The translations under genes were made by a program, and so were the position numbers. Below are positions 12,001-57,810 of a stretch of 64,000 nucleotides of DNA, piece by piece. How positions within the stretch are numbered: position 1 is the stretch's first letter; each line of letters opens with the position of its first letter. Location: the NCBI GenBank assembly GCA_963971285.1, contig OZ020244.1:32612001-32676000 (forward strand), in the 5' to 3' direction. Below the pieces are notes generated by a model. That model made no database searches. It saw only the letters and a list, made by a program, of their open reading frames with translations, and was not told the DNA's origin. The DNA is from Astropecten irregularis. Lineage: Eukaryota > Echinodermata > Asteroidea > Paxillosida > Astropectinidae.

Positions 12001-14126
12001 AGGAGCGTCTCCACTCATTTGCATCAGCAGCCTTTTATCGCCAACTGCTGGGATGGTTTCAAATTCTTGGTCTGGGCAGGTTTCCCTCAAATACTGACTC
12101 AATGGAGAATTCTGTGAATGTGATGTGTACAAACAACTGGATTATTAAAAATTAGTCAAGTGCTGGGCGAAATTGTATCATTTTATATCCGGTAAACTGA
12201 TTGCAAAAATAAATCAGGTTAACAGTTACGTAATCACCTTCATTGATCATGCATGCTCAGTGTAGAAGAATAGGGCCTGATGAATAAAAGCATGTATGGT
12301 ATTGACAGAGGGTATTTACATGACCACAATGGGAATATGTAGTCTATTAGACTACTATTAAAGCGTATTTGACATGACGATATTTCAGGCACCGGAAAAA
12401 GTCAACAGCAGGACAACTCGACTTGAGACAAGTCGACTGAAAAAAAAACTTGACACCGAGACAGCTCCACTGCAAAGACAACTCGACTCCGAGACAAACT
12501 TACTCCATCTCTCCCGACATCGATAGGATCGATGCCTGGCGTGCGCGATTTTATATCTGAAATAACTAAATAGGTGACAACAAAAATTGTATTTCTGGAA
12601 GCAAAAATAAGTGACACTGCGGCATTCTGCATGCAAAACCCTGGAATAATTATTCTGGGTGTATTTTTTTTATTTCTCCCTTTAAAATTTTTATTTTATT
12701 TCAGGTTAAAGATTCCGCTCAGACGTAGACCGGCGAAACGTGCCCTCCTAACTTTGAGCATTTTATAGGACTATAATATTTCCGGTTGACTTGTCTCCGA
12801 GTCGTGCTGTCTTTGCGGTCGAGCTGTCTTGAGTCGAGTTGTCTTTGCGGTTGACTTGTCTCTGAGACGAGTTGTCTTTGCAGTTGAGCTGTCTCAGAGT
12901 TGAGTTGTCTTTGCAGTTGAGCTGTCTCAGAGTTGAGTTGTCTTTATTTGCAGTTGAGCTGCCTCAGAGTTGAGTTGTCTTTGCAGTTGAGCTGTCTCAG
13001 AGTTGAGTTGTCTTTATTTGCAGTTGAGCTGCCTCAGAGTTGAGTTGTCTTTGCAGTTGAGCTGTCTCAGAGTTGAGTTGTCTTTATTTGCAGTTGAGCT
13101 GCCTCAGAGTTGAGTTGTCTTTATTTGCAGTTGAGCTGCCTCAGAGTTGAGTTGTCTTTATTTGCAGTTGAGCTGCCTCAGAGTTGAGTTGTCTTTGCGG
13201 TTGAGCTGTCTCAGAGTTGAGTTGTCTTTGCAGTTGAGCTGCCTCAGAGTTGAGTTGTCTTTGCCGTTGAGCTGTCTCTGAGTTGAGTTGTCTTTGCAGT
13301 TGAGCTGTCTCAGAGTTGAGTTGTCTTTGCAGTTGAGCTGTCTCAAAGTTGAGTTGTCTTTGCAGTTGAGCTGCCTCAGAGTTGAGTTGTCTTTGCAGTT
13401 GAGCTGCCTCAGAGTTGAGTTGTCTTTGCAATTCAGCTGTCTCAGAGTCGAGTTGTCTTTGCGGCTGACCTGTCTTGAGTTGAGATGTCTTTGTGGTCAA
13501 GCTGTCTCGGAGTTGAGTTGTCTTTGCGGTTGAGCTGTCTCTGAGTCGAGTTGTCTTTGCGGTTGAGCTGTCTTAGAGTCGAGTTGTCTTTGTGGACGAG
13601 CTGTCTTGGAGTTGAGTTGTCTTTGCGGTTGACTTGTCTCTGAGTCGAGTTGTCTTTGCGGTTGAGCTGTCTTGAGTTGAGTTGTCTTTGCGGTTGACTT
13701 GTCTCTGAGTTGAGTTGTCTTTGCGGCTGACTTGTCTCGGAGTTGAGTTGTCTTTGCCTTTTGCAATTGAGCTGTTTCGGAGTTGAATTGTCTTTGCGGT
13801 GAAGCTGTCTTGAGTCCAGTTGTCTTTACGGTCAACTTGTCTGACATTCTTTATCGATATCGCCATTTTGTTCTAAATCCATGACCAAGTTTTAATTTTA
13901 CGTCTTTACCAGTTTACAATACTTGGGTAAGGGGCCTAGGCCTAACGTTAGGCCTAGGCCTAGGCCCTAACAGTTAGGCCTACTCAATTTTCCTCAAATT
14001 TACAGTCCTGCAATACAAGTAAACAACTTCATTTTTATTCTAAGACTAAGATAAGCCAAGCAGCAGCCCATACATACATGTACATACCTCAAGAAGGACC
14101 TCCTCGTCATAAGTTTCCTCAGCCAT
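1..14126 (-). CDS. VEZT: Vezatin (adherens-junction transmembrane protein), 5' part of gene, exons 1-11 plus a possible exon 12
   Basis: Vezatin is a two-pass membrane protein of adherens junctions that binds myosin VIIa. Coding exons on the minus strand are 14088-14126, 11968-12111, 10588-10650, 10043-10212, 8725-9033, 7470-7701, 6504-6578, 4323-4419, 3055-3286, 2292-2479 and 1575-1693, about 556 codons in all. Every junction has GT/AG and matching phase. Family signatures as I remember them from human vezatin are an N-terminus ending DEEVLLE then NSPLSQYL (human DEEVVFENSPLYQYL), two hydrophobic segments near residues 140-160 and 165-190, IQEVEVISRGF near residue 240 (human IQETEVISRGF), SEFIRRL, and AVRSLRLHLEATLN. 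Human vezatin is about 780 residues, so the acidic C-terminal third lies upstream of base 1. The nearest upstream gene, TMA7, is divergent. Several introns carry MITEs and two carry minisatellites. Confidence 0.93.
27..1574. other. VEZT intron with MITE-like repeats, no gene seen
   Basis: No convincing exon. Two TIR-flanked palindromic repeats with ends reading gggccgatttcat are present (918-1036 and about 1289-1553). Open frames at 530-941 on both strands look like chance or repeat-derived frames. Confidence 0.5.
918..1036. repeat. Short palindromic MITE, GGGGCCGATTTCATAAA ends
   Basis: The left end ggggccgatttcataaag is inverted at the right (ttttatgaaatcggcccc). Internal copies of gcgacgcgtcgca and tgcgacgcgtcgta give a full hairpin of about 119 bp. 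It is related in its ends to the commoner GGGGCCAATTTCATAGAGC family in this window. Confidence 0.75.
1575..1693 (-). CDS. VEZT: VEZT coding exon 11
   Basis: Acceptor tttcctgtag, donor gtacggtg, 119 bp, phase 1 to 0. It encodes a polar, acidic linker (GLREQKPDSDSAD...) ending LPLRNEIEFDDQ, equivalent to the human PIPEEQELEAYVDD area. Similarity is weaker here, so support rests mainly on phase and splice sites. Confidence 0.7.
2292..2479 (-). CDS. VEZT: VEZT coding exon 10
   Basis: Acceptor aaaatcacag, donor gtaagaat, 188 bp, phase 2 to 1. It starts RVISVEESLEAS (human EVIILEDELEK) and contains LQEAVSSLEKMN (human WEEAISQVDKLL), a predicted coiled helix. Confidence 0.87.
2585..2990. repeat. 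AAAGGTAGTATCATACTTTGG-family MITE (decayed)
   Basis: It begins ccttaaaggttataccacactttgg, with internal gaaatgcag and tttttgagaaaacagtg blocks shared with better copies at 8047 and 28800. The right end near 2950 keeps accaaagtatgga. Confidence 0.6.
3055..3286 (-). CDS. VEZT: VEZT coding exon 9
   Basis: Acceptor tggaggacag, donor gtacacct, 232 bp, phase 1 to 2. SSLVKLQRSYDCHR and SSAVRSLRLHLEATLN match the human CLEELKRSYEFYR and HTAVRSLQLHLKALLN segments. The acceptor was chosen among nearby AGs because only it fits the phase. Confidence 0.88.
3372..3664. repeat. AAAGGTAGTATCATACTTTGG-family MITE (inverted, decayed)
   Basis: Starts tttaaaggtagtatgaccatactttgg and ends near acaaaaaccacagtattat...tctttaaa. 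The inner sequence is in reverse order relative to the 8047 copy. It lies in the intron between VEZT exons 8 and 9. Confidence 0.6.
4323..4419 (-). CDS. VEZT: VEZT coding exon 8
   Basis: Acceptor cgttgtag, donor gtaatcgg, 97 bp, phase 0 to 1. It encodes AMNSLFLEQRSEFIRRLILS, which parallels human LWVAQSSEFFRRLALLLS. Confidence 0.87.
4537..4671. repeat. Hairpin MITE with GGGCCTGTTTGTTTC termini
   Basis: gggcctgtttgtttc at the left is inverted as gaaacaaacaggcccc at the right. The interior repeats ggatccggatccca in both orientations. It is about 135 bp long, in the intron between VEZT exons 7 and 8. No clear target duplication was seen. Confidence 0.75.
6504..6578 (-). CDS. VEZT: VEZT coding exon 7
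   Basis: Acceptor acaatgttag, donor gtgagaac, 25 codons, phase 0 to 0. The acidic start (VDDGEDASQDSLSE) then FSLAALK matches the human EEEAHNFTDGFSLPALK stretch. Confidence 0.88.
6731..6865. repeat. Repeat with the caccatgtaa / ctcgacgtttcgaac signature
   Basis: Contains gtttgcggtgacaccatgtaatctc and tatctcgacgtttcgaacagtgtgctctgttcgtc. A fold-back relative lies at 39165-39325, and related elements lie at 28241-28475 and 35775-35970. Confidence 0.6.
7470..7701 (-). CDS. VEZT: VEZT coding exon 6
   Basis: Acceptor after ttggtttaag, donor gtaaatta, 232 bp, phase 2 to 0. It encodes HALRQACFCAARAQF and VSDVDHISNYLAVI, aligning with human GLRKAVYRTLRANF and SESDNVTNYICVV. Confidence 0.9.
8047..8408. 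repeat. MITE, TTAAAGGTAGTATCATACTT terminal repeats (well-preserved copy)
   Basis: About 362 bp. The left TIR ttaaaggtagtatcatactt is repeated inverted at the right (accaaagtatgatactacctttaa). The centre holds the palindrome gatcttttaaaagatc. The flanking TTAA could be the target duplication of a piggyBac-like or similar TTAA-targeting family, but this is inference. It lies in a VEZT intron. Confidence 0.85.
8725..9033 (-). CDS. VEZT: VEZT coding exon 5 (membrane segments)
   Basis: Acceptor catgtttgcag, donor gtgagtct, 309 bp, phase 2 to 2. It carries two hydrophobic helices separated by a short GQSAGINCSS turn, then a basic amphipathic stretch ending in the vezatin signature IQEVEVISRGF. 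The acceptor lies about 70 bp from a 69-bp minisatellite. Confidence 0.93.
9105..9945 (-). repeat. 69-bp minisatellite in a VEZT intron, coding-like
   Basis: About a dozen tandem units of roughly 69 bp (some 66 or 63) share gagctcaactgtctg, gacgaaacc and ttaggcacgcaacgaaca. Because 69 is 23 codons, the minus strand stays open for long stretches and reads a repeating ARQTVELVFVACL unit. There is no start context, splice evidence or known family, so the frame is probably a by-product of unit length. Confidence 0.9.
10043..10212 (-). CDS. VEZT: VEZT coding exon 4
   Basis: Acceptor gtccttgcag, donor gtaaggag, 170 bp, phase 0 to 2. It encodes NAQFLPQYSSQALHSQLLLD and ends in a hydrophobic run (HLVWVCGRFL) leading into the membrane region of exon 5. 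Confidence 0.82.
10588..10650 (-). CDS. VEZT: VEZT coding exon 3
   Basis: Acceptor ctttctgcag, donor gtaagtg, 21 codons (EVVLRCLEWLFPP...IEDV), phase 0 to 0. It corresponds to the human VAETIKSWIFF region. Confidence 0.8.
10911..11333. repeat. MITE with ATGCAGCTGTCARTTGTAAG termini
   Basis: atgcagctgtcaattgtaag at the left is inverted at the right (cttacaactgacagctgcat). The TIR runs on for about 40 bp to the cccctggg/cccggggg stretch. The interior repeats gacgcacc and tgacgga blocks. It is about 423 bp, in the intron between VEZT exons 2 and 3. Confidence 0.85.
11470..11770 (-). mobile_element. tRNA-derived SINE
   Basis: On the minus strand the head reads GGGCTGGATAGCTCAGTTGG (A-box region) then GGTTCAAATCC (B box), followed by the tail region with cagtttcccttgtggtta. 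Related copies lie at about 20455, 45055 and 45390. No cloverleaf-competent acceptor stem was evident, so a SINE is preferred over a tRNA gene. Confidence 0.8.
11968..12111 (-). CDS. VEZT: VEZT coding exon 2
   Basis: Acceptor cattcacag, donor gtaaaaag, 48 codons, phase 0 to 0. It begins NSPLSQYLRETCPDQEFE, which parallels the human NSPLYQYL...FE stretch, and ends QLRVVK. Confidence 0.88.
12405..12510. repeat. Small inverted copy of the 33-bp VEZT-intron minisatellite
   Basis: gacaactcgacttgagacaa and gagacagctccactgcaaag are reverse complements of the unit in the large array at 12785-13850. The two arrays are therefore arranged head to head around about 275 bp of unrelated sequence. Confidence 0.75.
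12785..13850. repeat. 33-bp minisatellite (37-bp variants) in VEZT intron 1
   Basis: About thirty units of the type ttgagttgtctttgcagttg + agctgtctcagag, some with an extra 4 bp (tttatttgcag). The 33-bp units (11 codons) keep frames open on both strands, for example a minus-strand QRQLNSETAQL repeat. The array lies between VEZT exons 1 and 2. Nothing supports it as protein coding. Confidence 0.95.
14088..14126 (-). CDS. VEZT: VEZT coding exon 1
   Basis: Thirteen codons, MAEETYDEEVLLE, followed by the donor gtatgta. ATG has a purine at -3 and G at +4. The short acidic start matches the human vezatin N-terminus. It ends in phase 0. Confidence 0.85.
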
Positions 14127-54146: not shown

Positions 54147-54241
54147 TACGAGTCGGTCGGCCTACGAGTCGGTCGGCCTACGAGTCGGTCGGCCTACGAG
54201 TCGGTCGGCCTATACGAGTCGGTCGGCCTACGAGTCGGGCG
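54147..54241. repeat. 16-bp tandem repeat TACGAGTCGGTCGGCC
   Basis: Six units of tacgagtcggtcggcc, the fifth preceded by an extra ta and the last truncated (tacgagtcgggcg). A related tatacgagttgacc appears at 56719, just past the Harbinger element. Confidence 0.95.
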
Positions 54242-54249
54242 TATTGCCT

Positions 54250-54800
54250 TGGTCACACCTACGGGTTTTGCCGTACTTGGCCGCAGTTCTTGCACCCGTA
54301 GTTACCCGTACTTACACGTACTAGATTCGTAGTTAGCCTCAGTTACATGTAGTTAGCCGTAGTTACCCGTACTTAACCGTAGTTCAGCCGTAGGGTTTTA
54401 CCCTTGGTCTAGCCGCACTTCTAGCCTAAAATTTTGAACATGTTCAAAAATTTCGCCAACACAAGTACGGGTGGCCACCCGTACTTATCCGCAGTTGTTC
54501 GTAGTTACCCGTACTTCGATCGTACTAACAGCTGCAGTTACACGTAGTTCACCCGTAGTTACCCGTACCTACCTGTACTTAAAAATCGGCACCAATTTAC
54601 TACGGTCTACCACGGTTAAGTACGGATCAAACTACGGGTAACTAAGGGTAAGTACGGCTAAGTACGGTTGCACCAAGGTTGGCAAAGTAAGAGTAACTAC
54701 GGTTAAGTACGGGTGAAGTACAGTTAAATACGGGTGAAGTAAGGTTAAGTAAGGGTGAAATAAGGACAAGTAAGGGTAAGTAAGGTCAACTAAGGTTAGG
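54250..54800. repeat. Left subterminal motif array of the Harbinger element
   Basis: Dozens of degenerate ccgtastta units on the plus strand to about 54590, then the reverse (taagtacgg) to about 54800. The switch suggests an internal palindrome: ccttggtcacacc at 54247 is loosely mirrored by ggttgcaccaagg at about 54677. Confidence 0.85.
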
Positions 54801-54841
54801 TAATGTCAAATAAAGCTAGTTTCTGGGAAATATCTGGAGGG

Positions 54842-54848
54842 TATATAA
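54842..54848 (+). promoter_or_regulatory. TATA box of the Harbinger transposase gene
   Basis: tatataa in a locally GC-richer context, about 100 bp before the ATG. The start codon context caccATGG is an optimal Kozak match. Confidence 0.6.
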
Positions 54849-54944
54849 GCTGGATCAGAGCACATGGTCTTCCCAGTCTGTGACAGTTCTTCACCAGATC
54901 GTACGTCTTAAATATTCCTCTCAAACCTCAACAACAACTTCACC

Positions 54945-56243
54945 ATGGTAGACAGGGTTACCATGATTAGGTATTGGGGCCTGATGAACAGAGAGCTGAT
55001 GGGGTTGGCCAGGGACCTCGTGGAGCTTGAAGAGGTGGAGGCTAGAGAGAGGCAGCAGAGAAGGCAGAGAAGGTGGTGGACTAGGGGATGGATTGCCCGG
55101 AGACCCACACTGGGCCTTTATGACACCCTCATGCAAAAGCTCGAGATAGAGGATGTCGAGACCTTCGCCTACTTCATGAGGATGGATGTGGACACATTCA
55201 ACGACCTGCTGCAGAGGGTCCAAGGGCGTATTCTGAGGAGGGATACCGCGATGCGCGATGCTGTCTCACCTGGGGTGAAACTTGCCGTCACCCTCAGGTA
55301 CCTGGCAACAGGCAACACGTACAGAGACTTGAGGTGTGGGTTCAGGGTTGCCCACAACACCATCTCGTGCATTGTGAGGGAGGTGTGCCAGGCTCTATTG
55401 GACATCGTTGGACCAGAGGTGCTGAAGACCCCAACAACAGCAGACGAGTGGCTCCAGGTGGCACAGAACTTCCAAAACCGGTGGCAGTTTCCCCACACCC
55501 TGGGAGCCATAGACGGCAAGCATGTAGCCATTAAGAAGCCACCCAAGTCAGGTTCACTCTACTACAACTACAAGGGCTTCTACTCCATTGTGTTGATGGC
55601 CTTGGTCGACGCCGACTACAAGTTTCTGTGGATCCAGGTTGGCGATGTGGGTTCCAGTTCTGATGGCCAGATCTGGAACAACTGTCAGATGCGCGAAGCA
55701 ATTGAGCAGGGTGTCCTTGGTGTTCCTGATGCTGCACCGTTGCCTGGTGATGACATGGCCTCCCCCTACTACTTTATAGCTGACGACGCCTATGGCATGA
55801 GGACCTTCCTGATGAAGCCATTCTCCATACGTGGCCTCACCCGCGACGAGCAGCTCTTCAATTACCGTCTCTCCAGGGCGCGCCGTGTTGTTGAAAACGC
55901 CTTTGGCATCATGGCCAACAAGTTTAGATGTCTGCTGGGGCCAATCCAGGTGGAAGTCGACAGTGCCACACTCATTGTCAAGACTTGTTGCGTCCTCCAC
56001 AACTATCTGCGAGCCAGGAATCCTGCTGCAGACAACCAGGTTGCAGACCGGGAAGATGCTGCCCACAACTTGCTGCCTGGCGAGTGGCGTAACCATGTGA
56101 ACCTGACAGACATGACTGAACCACAGTGCGGGAACCGCGCAACCAAGGAGGCCAAGAGGCAGAGACTCTACCTGAAACACTACCTAATGTCGGCAGCAGG
56201 TTCAGTGCCATGGCAAGAAAGGATGGTGCCTCAACACAACTAG
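54945..56243 (+). CDS. Harbinger/HARBI1-like DDE transposase
   Basis: Uninterrupted 432-codon ORF, no intron needed. An N-terminal basic region (RQQRRQRRWW, residues 36-45) is followed by a helix-turn-helix-like segment (about 108-150: KLAVTLRYLATGNTYRDL...NTISCIVREV). The DDE nuclease (DDE_Tnp_4 type) has D190 in GAIDGKH, a conserved D240 in SSSDGQIW, D280/D281 in FIADDAYGM and E317 in RRVVENAFG. It catalyses cut-and-paste transposition of its own element. The length is in the usual 350-450 range. It is more GC-rich than its surroundings, with a clean strong-Kozak start and a TATA box upstream. Its place between TIRs and the absence of introns argue for a live or recently live transposon gene rather than a domesticated host HARBI1. 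Confidence 0.95.
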   Translation: MVDRVTMIRYWGLMNRELMGLARDLVELEEVEARERQQRRQRRWWTRGWIARRPTLGLYDTLMQKLEIEDVETFAYFMRMDVDTFNDLLQRVQGRILRRDTAMRDAVSPGVKLAVTLRYLATGNTYRDLRCGFRVAHNTISCIVREVCQALLDIVGPEVLKTPTTADEWLQVAQNFQNRWQFPHTLGAIDGKHVAIKKPPKSGSLYYNYKGFYSIVLMALVDADYKFLWIQVGDVGSSSDGQIWNNCQMREAIEQGVLGVPDAAPLPGDDMASPYYFIADDAYGMRTFLMKPFSIRGLTRDEQLFNYRLSRARRVVENAFGIMANKFRCLLGPIQVEVDSATLIVKTCCVLHNYLRARNPAADNQVADREDAAHNLLPGEWRNHVNLTDMTEPQCGNRATKEAKRQRLYLKHYLMSAAGSVPWQERMVPQHN

Positions 56244-56359
56244 GTGTTGGCAGATGGGTGTACTGGCAAAAAATGAGAACATATAGAGCAAATTTGAACC
56301 ACAGGTATAAATTTTGCAATACCGACGTCTGGAGACCGTAGTGCGCAGGCGCGGGCGTC

Positions 56360-56660
56360 ACCTGGCCGCAGTTTCGACCGCAGTTACTCGTACTTATCTG
56401 TAGTTACCCGTAGTTCAGCCGTAGTTAGCCGTAGTTAGCCGTAGTTCAATCCGTACTTACCTGTAGTTACCCGTACTTCACCCGTACTTCATTCGTACTT
56501 CTCACCCGTACTTACCCTAAGTTACCCTTACTTCCCCGTACTTACCTGTAGTTACCTGTAGTTACCTGTAGCCATTCGTACTTACCGTGGACAATTCAGC
56601 CGCAGTTACCCTTACTTACCCGTACTTACCCGTACTTACCCGTAGTTCAAAGTACGGGGA
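56360..56660. repeat. Right subterminal motif array of the Harbinger element
   Basis: About thirty cc(g)tastta units (cgtagttacc, cgtacttacc, cgtagttcagc) in plus orientation, opposite to the inner part of the left array, so the gene sits between inverted arrays. Confidence 0.88.
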
Positions 56661-57676
56661 TTTTCAATTTTTTGAACTGCGGCCAAGTACGGCCTTAGCC
56701 GTAGGTGTGACCACAGCATATACGAGTTGACCAGCATTCTCTTCCATAAGGCCTGGCGTGGCTTTCAAGTTTTCCAAATTAGGACCTCAGTATAGAACAC
56801 TTTGCCAATCGTTGGAGTTGATCTTTAAGTTTTCTCCATGCGTTTTCAAAATTCACATTACATAATCTTTATTTTGGTGGGTATCCAATTTTTTGGAGGT
56901 TTCCTATAGCTAGATTCGGGTTGAATGACACTCATTGGCCCTCTTTCATACAGGACGATTTTACCGTATAGTCACGCTTTTTCTTTCTGATTTTATGTCG
57001 GTATTCCCTCCAAAATCAGACAGAGATTTTATTTCTTTTGGGGTTGGTGCACTGAACACAATTTTGTTTCGGGTTTTCAAAATACCAGGGAAGTCATCTT
57101 TTCCTTCCTCCATGTTCAGAGAGATGAACTATGCACTGATGAAGGAGCCCCCGCCCCGGGCACTGTGTGACCTTATTGGTACGTCATTGCAAGGCTGAGA
57201 ATCTAGTCCAGGATTATTGTGCAACAACTTGTGGTTGTTCACTTCCATTTCCACGTTATTATCACGTACATAATTCTTTTCCTCGGTCAGAAAATGGTGA
57301 CCTGTATCCTTGACTCTTTTCAATGCTTCTCACGCACACAGTTTTCAACAGTTTTCAATCTCGCATGAGATTGATAGCCGATCTGCATTCGCCTACACTT
57401 AAGCATATTCCATTGGAAATCACATCCAATCCCACGACTCAGTAGGCCTATACTGACAAACTCCATGTCTGTATTCTTCCCTTTAATACGCGGTTCTTTT
57501 CATAATCTGAGCATATGCCTACCTGTCGGGTTCTCGATATTGTGTTAGATCTGACAATAATAATAGCAAGGTGAACACAACTGAATGTTTTTTTTTCAAA
57601 ACCAGCCAAGCTTGAGTTCGAAATGTTTTCCCCATCATTAAGTGACGGATCAGCAACTATACGCGTGGCAACATAG

Positions 57677-57810
57677 GGTGCATTCGTTTAGCTCACCCGG
57701 GTCGACACCAGAGTCAACTTCGTCCTAATTCTGTCGCTTGTTTTGTGCAGTATAGCACGACCATTCCCAGAAAGGGCTGACCCGTGTTAGCTAAACGAAT
57801 GCATCCATTA
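57677..57810. repeat. MITE with GGTGCATTCGTTTAGCT ends
   Basis: agggtgcattcgtttagctc at the left is inverted as tagctaaacgaatgcatcc at the right, with gggtcgacacc / ggctgacccg inside, about 133 bp. Confidence 0.8.

Follow-up and report, generated by a model that had tools for sequence, protein, structure and literature searches.

Does a compact transposon of Astropecten irregularis, in which an apparently complete transposase gene lies between long arrays of one short motif, represent a Harbinger element that works without the usual Myb-like partner, or is it what remains of a larger element? The question is raised by a 64,000-bp stretch of the genome (contig OZ020244.1, positions 32,612,001 to 32,676,000 of assembly GCA_963971285.1), referred to here as the window, in which an earlier note had placed an intact PIF/Harbinger element at 54250..56713. 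The assembly (475.7 Mb, 168 contigs) was searched for relatives, and fetched loci and contigs are given L and C numbers, respectively. Its mitochondrial code appears to be of the echinoderm/flatworm type: in COX1 on contig C168 (16,335 bp), AAA occurs at presumed Asn sites, ATA at presumed Ile sites and AGA at Ser sites, and the protein resembles that of a sea star. Two long siblings with two genes were found, together with one shared gene-removing deletion and the deleted form at seven loci with different flanks. As the longer siblings have a second gene where the deletion lies, the window element is not a Myb-free Harbinger; very probably it arose by deletion within a two-gene PIF/Harbinger family and retained only the transposase gene.

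The element itself is real, though its ends lie 5 bp further out on each side than first described, giving a true span of 54245-56718. The left terminal inverted repeat (TIR; 54245..54289, + strand), which begins with TGCCTTGGTCACACCTACGG, is 45 nt long and 87% complementary to the right TIR (56674..56718, - strand), which ends in GGTGTGACCACAGCA; the right end of the element as a whole reads ...CCGTAGGTGTGACCACAGCA. Both TIRs are conserved at the ends of the siblings, as expected of PIF/Harbinger termini, the border TGCCT..CAGCA is common to these copies, and the boundary is set by the empty site of sibling L018 described below. The element is flanked by a target-site duplication, TAT, at 54242..54244 and 56719..56721. 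Target-site duplications of PIF/Harbinger elements are 3 bp long and usually TWA; the TAT of the window copy has the expected length and is not TWA. A 16-bp tandem repeat, TACGAGTCGGTCGGCC, at 54147-54240 directly adjoins the left border.

The transposase open reading frame (ORF; 54945..56243, + strand) encodes 432 aa, within the 400-500 aa of the IS5-like DDE transposases of PIF/Harbinger elements, and residues 189-353 match the Pfam family PF13359 (DDE_Tnp_4) over its full length (E 4e-34, profile positions 1-158 of 158). D190, D280 and E317 are taken to be the acidic triad. The start ATG sits in CACCATGG, and a TATA box, TATATAAG, lies at 54842..54849 (+ strand). The claims of a reading frame with all DDE residues, a good start context and a TATA box therefore stand, as does the assignment to PIF/Harbinger, which the DDE_Tnp_4 match, the TIRs and the 3-bp duplication support together. 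A sequence search for solved structures related to the transposase returned none at E up to 1.

The family consists of 11 copies, on which a DNA search and a TIR pattern search agree. The 19 exact TGGTCACACCTACGG sites in the genome all lie at the ends of these copies; when up to one mismatch was allowed, 30 sites were found (11 beyond the exact ones) as compared with 40 for a reversed-pattern control. Seven copies are transposase-only, namely the window copy, five full siblings with differing flanks (L002-L006; 97.6-99.4%) and the shortened L016. Two copies are long, L014 on contig C9 and L015..L017 on C30, and two, L018 and L019, resemble miniature inverted-repeat transposable elements (MITEs). 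The window element is thus not the single divergent copy that the earlier note had named as the contrary outcome. The near-identical siblings with clean target duplications that it had hoped for are found as far as identity is concerned, whereas the duplication is perfect in only four of the eight copies that keep both ends (all but L014, L016 and L019): TAT in the window copy and TTA in L004, L006 and L018.

The frame of the transposase is open in five of the nine coding copies (window, L002, L004, L005 and L015) and broken in L003, L006, L014 and L016; in L005 the fourth codon differs and the frame remains open. The window transposase has an open frame, yet six of its residues depart from the family majority. 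Relative to that majority, the coding copies contain 43 nonsynonymous and 11 synonymous changes, changes shared by several copies being counted once per copy, and the neutral expectation is 2.96 to 1. These data bear on a possible domestication of the ORF as a host gene, in favour of which an open frame of 432 aa with promoter signals might speak. A multi-copy element with termini and target duplications, the 43:11 ratio and the breakage of four of the nine coding copies make domestication improbable in the extreme; a HARBI1-like gene in particular was rejected given the 11 copies with common ends and the same ratio of changes.

The gene that the short copies lack is found at the deletion junction, 56261..56262 in the window copy. 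Here the long siblings contain extra DNA, 2.9 kb in L014 and 41.6 kb in C30, the latter including a further insertion of ~38.6 kb. This DNA holds a convergent, multi-exon gene on the opposite strand, with its start codon 19 bases from the right junction and GT-AG borders at exons 3-5; the deletion in the short copies took this gene, start codon included. The absence of a Myb-like ORF from the window copy was correctly reported, as none occurs in its ORF list, and the description of the element as intact is misleading. The idea of an element that never had a partner gene is rejected, given the second gene that two siblings hold at this point. Comparison with the profile PF10545 (MADF_DNA_bdg) gave a weak match, under the cut-off, to piece 1 of the second gene (E 0.0032, 18.2 bits), and small local comparisons related it to the partner ORFs of two sister elements, L057 and L020, that are introduced below: piece 1 to that of L057 (29% over 48 aa, E 1e-5), and exon 3 to those of L020 (42% over 43 aa, E 5e-7) and L057 (37% over 38 aa, E 2e-4). 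A Myb/MADF type is therefore supported for the second gene, though more weakly than the deletion itself, and would be the class expected of a Harbinger partner (Myb/SANT/MADF).

Neither long copy retains this gene in working order. Relative to the C30 copy, the gene of L014 is 59 bases shorter in exon 1, and it contains an in-frame stop; the C30 gene is in turn two bases short of that of L014, with a resulting frameshift, and also carries the large insertion. Splice combinations of L014 gave no open frame, and an attempt to assemble a complete spliced gene from it was given up when comparison with C30 showed each to be broken. The Myb-like ORF that was to be sought in the siblings thus exists as a gene in two long copies, but in broken form and with a MADF match under the cut-off. 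Within the L014 insert, positions ~86-714 recur elsewhere, six times as same-strand pairs 6-7 kb apart, as long terminal repeats (LTRs) do, and are probably a solo LTR. The insertion in the C30 copy (L023-L026, C30:5515000-5554999) contains repetitive ORFs and a pol ORF of 1382 aa that was judged Gypsy-like by eye.

All seven short copies share the one deletion. At 54533, 54799, 55557 and 56668, the two long copies agree on a base that is absent from every readable short copy; L003 further agrees with the long copies at 54838 and 56223, and L016, which lacks a base at 56223, does so at 54838, consistent with early branching of L003 and L016 within the short lineage. Length changes of 10 bp in the right array are distributed without regard to the long/short grouping. 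The shared deletion, the 43:11 changes and the state of the frames thus indicate that the deletion form multiplied after the gene had been lost and that its copies then decayed without visible selection.

The same data could be read to mean that the transposase alone suffices, the dense arrays replacing the Myb partner and the short copies being autonomous. Seven short copies, all with the same deletion, against two long ones would agree with this, as would the breakage of both second genes while five of nine transposase frames are open. However, the long copies were perhaps still intact at the time of the short copies' movement; both proteins are required in the systems described in the literature (PMC9710019, PMC2836001), and relatives of the family keep a partner. 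A protein search with the transposase gave at least 98 matches genome-wide, and three relatives with transposase identities of 44-49%, L057, L021 and L020, were fetched. A convergent partner ORF is retained in L057 and L020, that of L057 matching MADF above the cut-off (E 3.1e-6); at the corresponding place, L021 contains ORFs of 124 and 155 aa on the opposite strand. Sufficiency of the transposase is therefore considered quite improbable. At 860-5455 of L057 lies a sister Harbinger that looks complete, with a transposase gene and a convergent MADF gene; four transposase frames listed by the protein search (on C18, C21, C25 and C10) have equal scores and no stops, and the family was possibly active recently. 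A short palindromic element at window positions 57676-57806, with 28-nt arms that are 89% complementary (GGGTGCATTCGTTTAGCTCACCC...), is perhaps a separate MITE, and similar arms, AGCTAAACG, are present at 4490-4565 of L020.

That members of the family did insert, with a 3-bp duplication, follows from the empty sites of L018 and L005, which support the duplication at the boundary given above. When the flanks of L018 were joined with a single TTA, the best match was 99% identical over 220 of 220 bases with no net gap, the joined flanks giving at least 114 matches in all. The flanks of L005, which sits in another repeat, gave 11 matches when joined; eight cross the join at 95-98%, seven of these spanning at least 218 bases, and the remainder are one weak match across the join (79%) and the two own flanks. 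No empty site was found for the window copy with its right flank, the only one searched (382 bp, single-copy save for a 54-bp piece). The empty-site search was confined to L018, L005 and this flank. The impression of recent activity is supported by the five siblings at 97.6-99.4%, the five open frames of nine, the two empty sites and the absence of a sign of purifying selection. The site of L018 itself lies in a 130-bp tandem and dispersed repeat, TTAGGCAAGGTCTTTCATTTGTGACACATTG..., with at least 114 matches in the genome (L018 1508-1925).

The arrays at both ends of the element comprise ~60 copies of a 10-bp unit with the core CCGTASTT. Exact CGTASTT occurs 36 times in the 974 bp of the two ends, as compared with a mean of 1.4 (maximum 5) in 500 dinucleotide shuffles, and 67 times with up to one mismatch, as compared with 16.5 (maximum 30); 36 of the 40 exact sites in the window fall inside the element. 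From left to right the order is left TIR, forward block, reversed block, gene, forward block and right TIR. The left outer array (54272..54580, + strand) holds 20 forward sites with up to one mismatch at a period of 10, the left inner array (54598..54794, - strand) holds 16 reversed sites upstream of the TATA box, and the right array (56367..56647, + strand) holds 24 of the 25 forward sites of its block at a spacing of mostly 10-11 bp. At the same stringency, the numbers of plus and minus sites are 20 and 2 in the left outer block, 0 and 16 in the left inner block and 25 and 0 in the right block; the two-way arrays that flip within the left end and are mirrored round the gene were therefore described correctly. 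The motif is also present inside the TIRs, and counting these sites gives two nested inverted pairs, the outer with a long left arm and a right arm of ~60 bp, and the inner facing the gene region from both sides. The inner blocks have equal orientation upstream of the transposase gene and of the convergent second gene of the long copies. Main-orientation neighbours in the three blocks are spaced by 10 bp in 34 of 58 intervals and by 11 bp in 8, close to a single turn of B-DNA.

Four array stretches (692 bp) were aligned in a 10-letter cycle with equal weight per position and two letters allowed at one. Eight positions hold 1.1-1.9 bits and the linker base 0.27 bits, and at one position C or G is found in 62 of the 65 units. 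This pattern fits a recognition site better than the neutral decay of a tandem repeat, and the units are better-founded candidates for binding sites than before. That the arrays are instead a functionless, expandable tandem repeat riding along with the transposon is considered unlikely. Such a repeat would explain why the unit number of the right array differs among copies in 10-bp steps, and dense 8-mers do occur elsewhere: among 59 one-kb window segments outside the element, a tandem array of TTGAGTTG units at ~12900-14000 gives 48 one-mismatch 8-mer hits in 1 kb (13001-14000), as compared with 50 in the 974 bp of the ends, and the runner-up segment gives 21. Density alone is thus no argument; what counts is the orientation of the blocks, the occurrence of the motif in the TIRs as well and its retention in a MITE. 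Degradation of the units is not uniform, the core being conserved and the linker base free. In addition, each block has its own prevailing orientation, the inverted repeats themselves contain the motif, and termini and arrays are all that L018 retains.

The opposed blocks at the left end raise a further possibility, that the arrays act as hairpin or foldback DNA, with the left outer and inner blocks paired in a cruciform that the machinery would recognize. Folded as single-stranded DNA, the left 586 bp indeed gives a structure more stable than that of any of 100 shuffles (-101.9 kcal/mol, z -5.86). However, any oppositely oriented repeat blocks would fold likewise, the right end has no equal opposing block, and the mobile MITE L018 has no left inner block; a role as foldback DNA is accordingly thought very improbable.

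The MITE-like copies, expected by the earlier note as elements sharing the arrays, were found in L018 and L019. L018 is 502 bp long, runs from TGGTC to GACCA and is inserted with a TTA duplication, while L019 is incomplete. In both, window position 54517 is joined to 56480 via a 17-bp identity, GTAGTTACCCGTACTTC, between the left array (54501..54517, + strand) and the right array (56463..56479, + strand). As compared with the window copy, L018 has 1 difference in 268 positions of its left part and 0 in 251 of its right part; it retains only termini and arrays, the left inner block being gone. L018 is short, non-coding and has the termini of its parent, as Tourist-like MITEs do, with only two copies found. 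Judged by the absence of coding parts, it would have moved in trans. The left outer and right blocks are direct repeats, which makes slippage, gap repair or recombination between them a simple probable cause of the junction.

On the preferred reading of a deletion derivative, these features may be joined in one cycle. The second protein, together with the transposase, would bind the 10-bp units side by side on one face of the DNA, and the bound arrays would concentrate transposase at the ends and pair them. The transposase would then cut at the TGC..GCA termini and insert into AT-rich 3-bp targets. A copy such as that in the window would supply transposase and borrow the partner from long copies then intact. 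The left outer and right arrays form direct repeats, and repair or recombination events involving their units may therefore eject the genes and leave a mobile MITE of termini and arrays. The inner blocks, lying upstream of the transposase promoter and of the start of the second gene, may allow the proteins to regulate their own genes.

Several observations weigh against this reading. The MADF match of the second gene lies under the Pfam cut-off of 22 bits, and three of the four pieces scanned had no Pfam match. Both second genes are broken and no third copy was found among the 40 of 52 candidates scored, other matches to the L014 insert covering only positions 86-726, which leaves supply in trans at the present day hypothetical. 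The partner ORF of L020 has no Pfam match. Three of the eight two-ended copies (L002, L003 and L015/L017) have no matching duplication, possibly through recombination between copies or change after insertion, and the duplication of L005 has one mismatch (TAA/TGA). A binding role of the arrays is read from sequence, and the unrelated TTGAGTTG repeat is nearly as dense. Finally, the enrichment of sister motifs over ordinary genome segments is moderate for L057 and L021 and absent for L020. The commonest subterminal 8-mers are CATCCGCT in L057 (19 in 1086 bp), TTGGCGCC in L021 (14 in 514 bp) and TCGTACAA in L020 (10 in 740 bp), those of L021 and L020 being counted only on the side upstream of the transposase. 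Each exceeds all 200 shuffles; set against like-sized window segments, that of L057 would rank third of 59, that of L021 third of 120, and that of L020 lies near the mean of 8.6. Arrays as a general trait of the clade were thus not upheld, L057 and L021 being suggestive and L020 not standing out from ordinary segments.

A more speculative proposal, put forward tentatively, is that the helically spaced arrays constitute a multivalent specificity code, in which a family-specific subterminal motif would be read by the family's own MADF partner and the direct-repeat array would also eject genes into mobile MITEs. The motifs would be CCGTASTT in the window family and CATCCGYT, GGCGCCAA and perhaps TCGTACAA in the three sisters. 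If so, the binding array and the birth of MITEs would be two sides of one structure.

How MITEs originate from their parents and how short motifs confer specificity on transposon ends are open questions. One small family here shows a two-gene element, a transposase-only element and a MITE side by side with base-exact junctions, and its sister families make joint change of motif and partner testable; otherwise it is a new family in a well-known superfamily. A literature search of limited coverage revealed no Harbinger with a 10-bp array, which is weak evidence. Short subterminal motifs in two orientations that are bound by an element-encoded protein are known from Ac/Ds (hAT) and En/Spm (CACTA) of maize, which belong to other superfamilies with other transposases.

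Within PIF/Harbinger, two genes are described as both required in rice and zebrafish (PMC9710019), and two element proteins as required for transposition (PMC2836001). Harbinger3_DR of zebrafish combines a transposase with a Myb-like partner, as the window family probably once did; the zebrafish partner binds a 9-bp subterminal motif and is required for entry of the transposase into the nucleus. Unlike that element as described, the window copy has dense arrays and no partner gene (PMC9710019, PMC2836001). Harbinger-Snek of sea kraits, with relatives in sea urchins, is likewise a two-gene Harbinger of marine animals, including echinoderms, with multi-copy solo-ORF variants that probably arose from large deletions and short non-coding variants with the same termini (PMC8437027). 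The published description of Harbinger-Snek, on which this comparison is based, mentions no motif arrays, and the window family is low-copy, with 11 found (PMC8437027). MtPH-A6-4 of Medicago truncatula also has subterminal repeats and internal-deletion derivatives that are possible MITE founders, and orf1 is missing in some members of other PIF/Harbinger families of this plant (PMC2213677). However, its repeat is 60 bp long with a triplicated 12-bp motif, in contrast to the 10-bp unit, 10-11 bp spacing and nested inverted blocks of the window element (PMC2213677). In Galileo of Drosophila, many sites for the DNA-binding domain lie in the repeats of the long ends and are proposed to give specificity to a short site, although this element belongs to the P superfamily and its binding domain is of THAP type (PMC3688188). 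Thus, each main feature of the window element has a precedent and the combination and spacing are new; the density of the arrays, their helical spacing and the array-to-array origin of the MITEs are notable.

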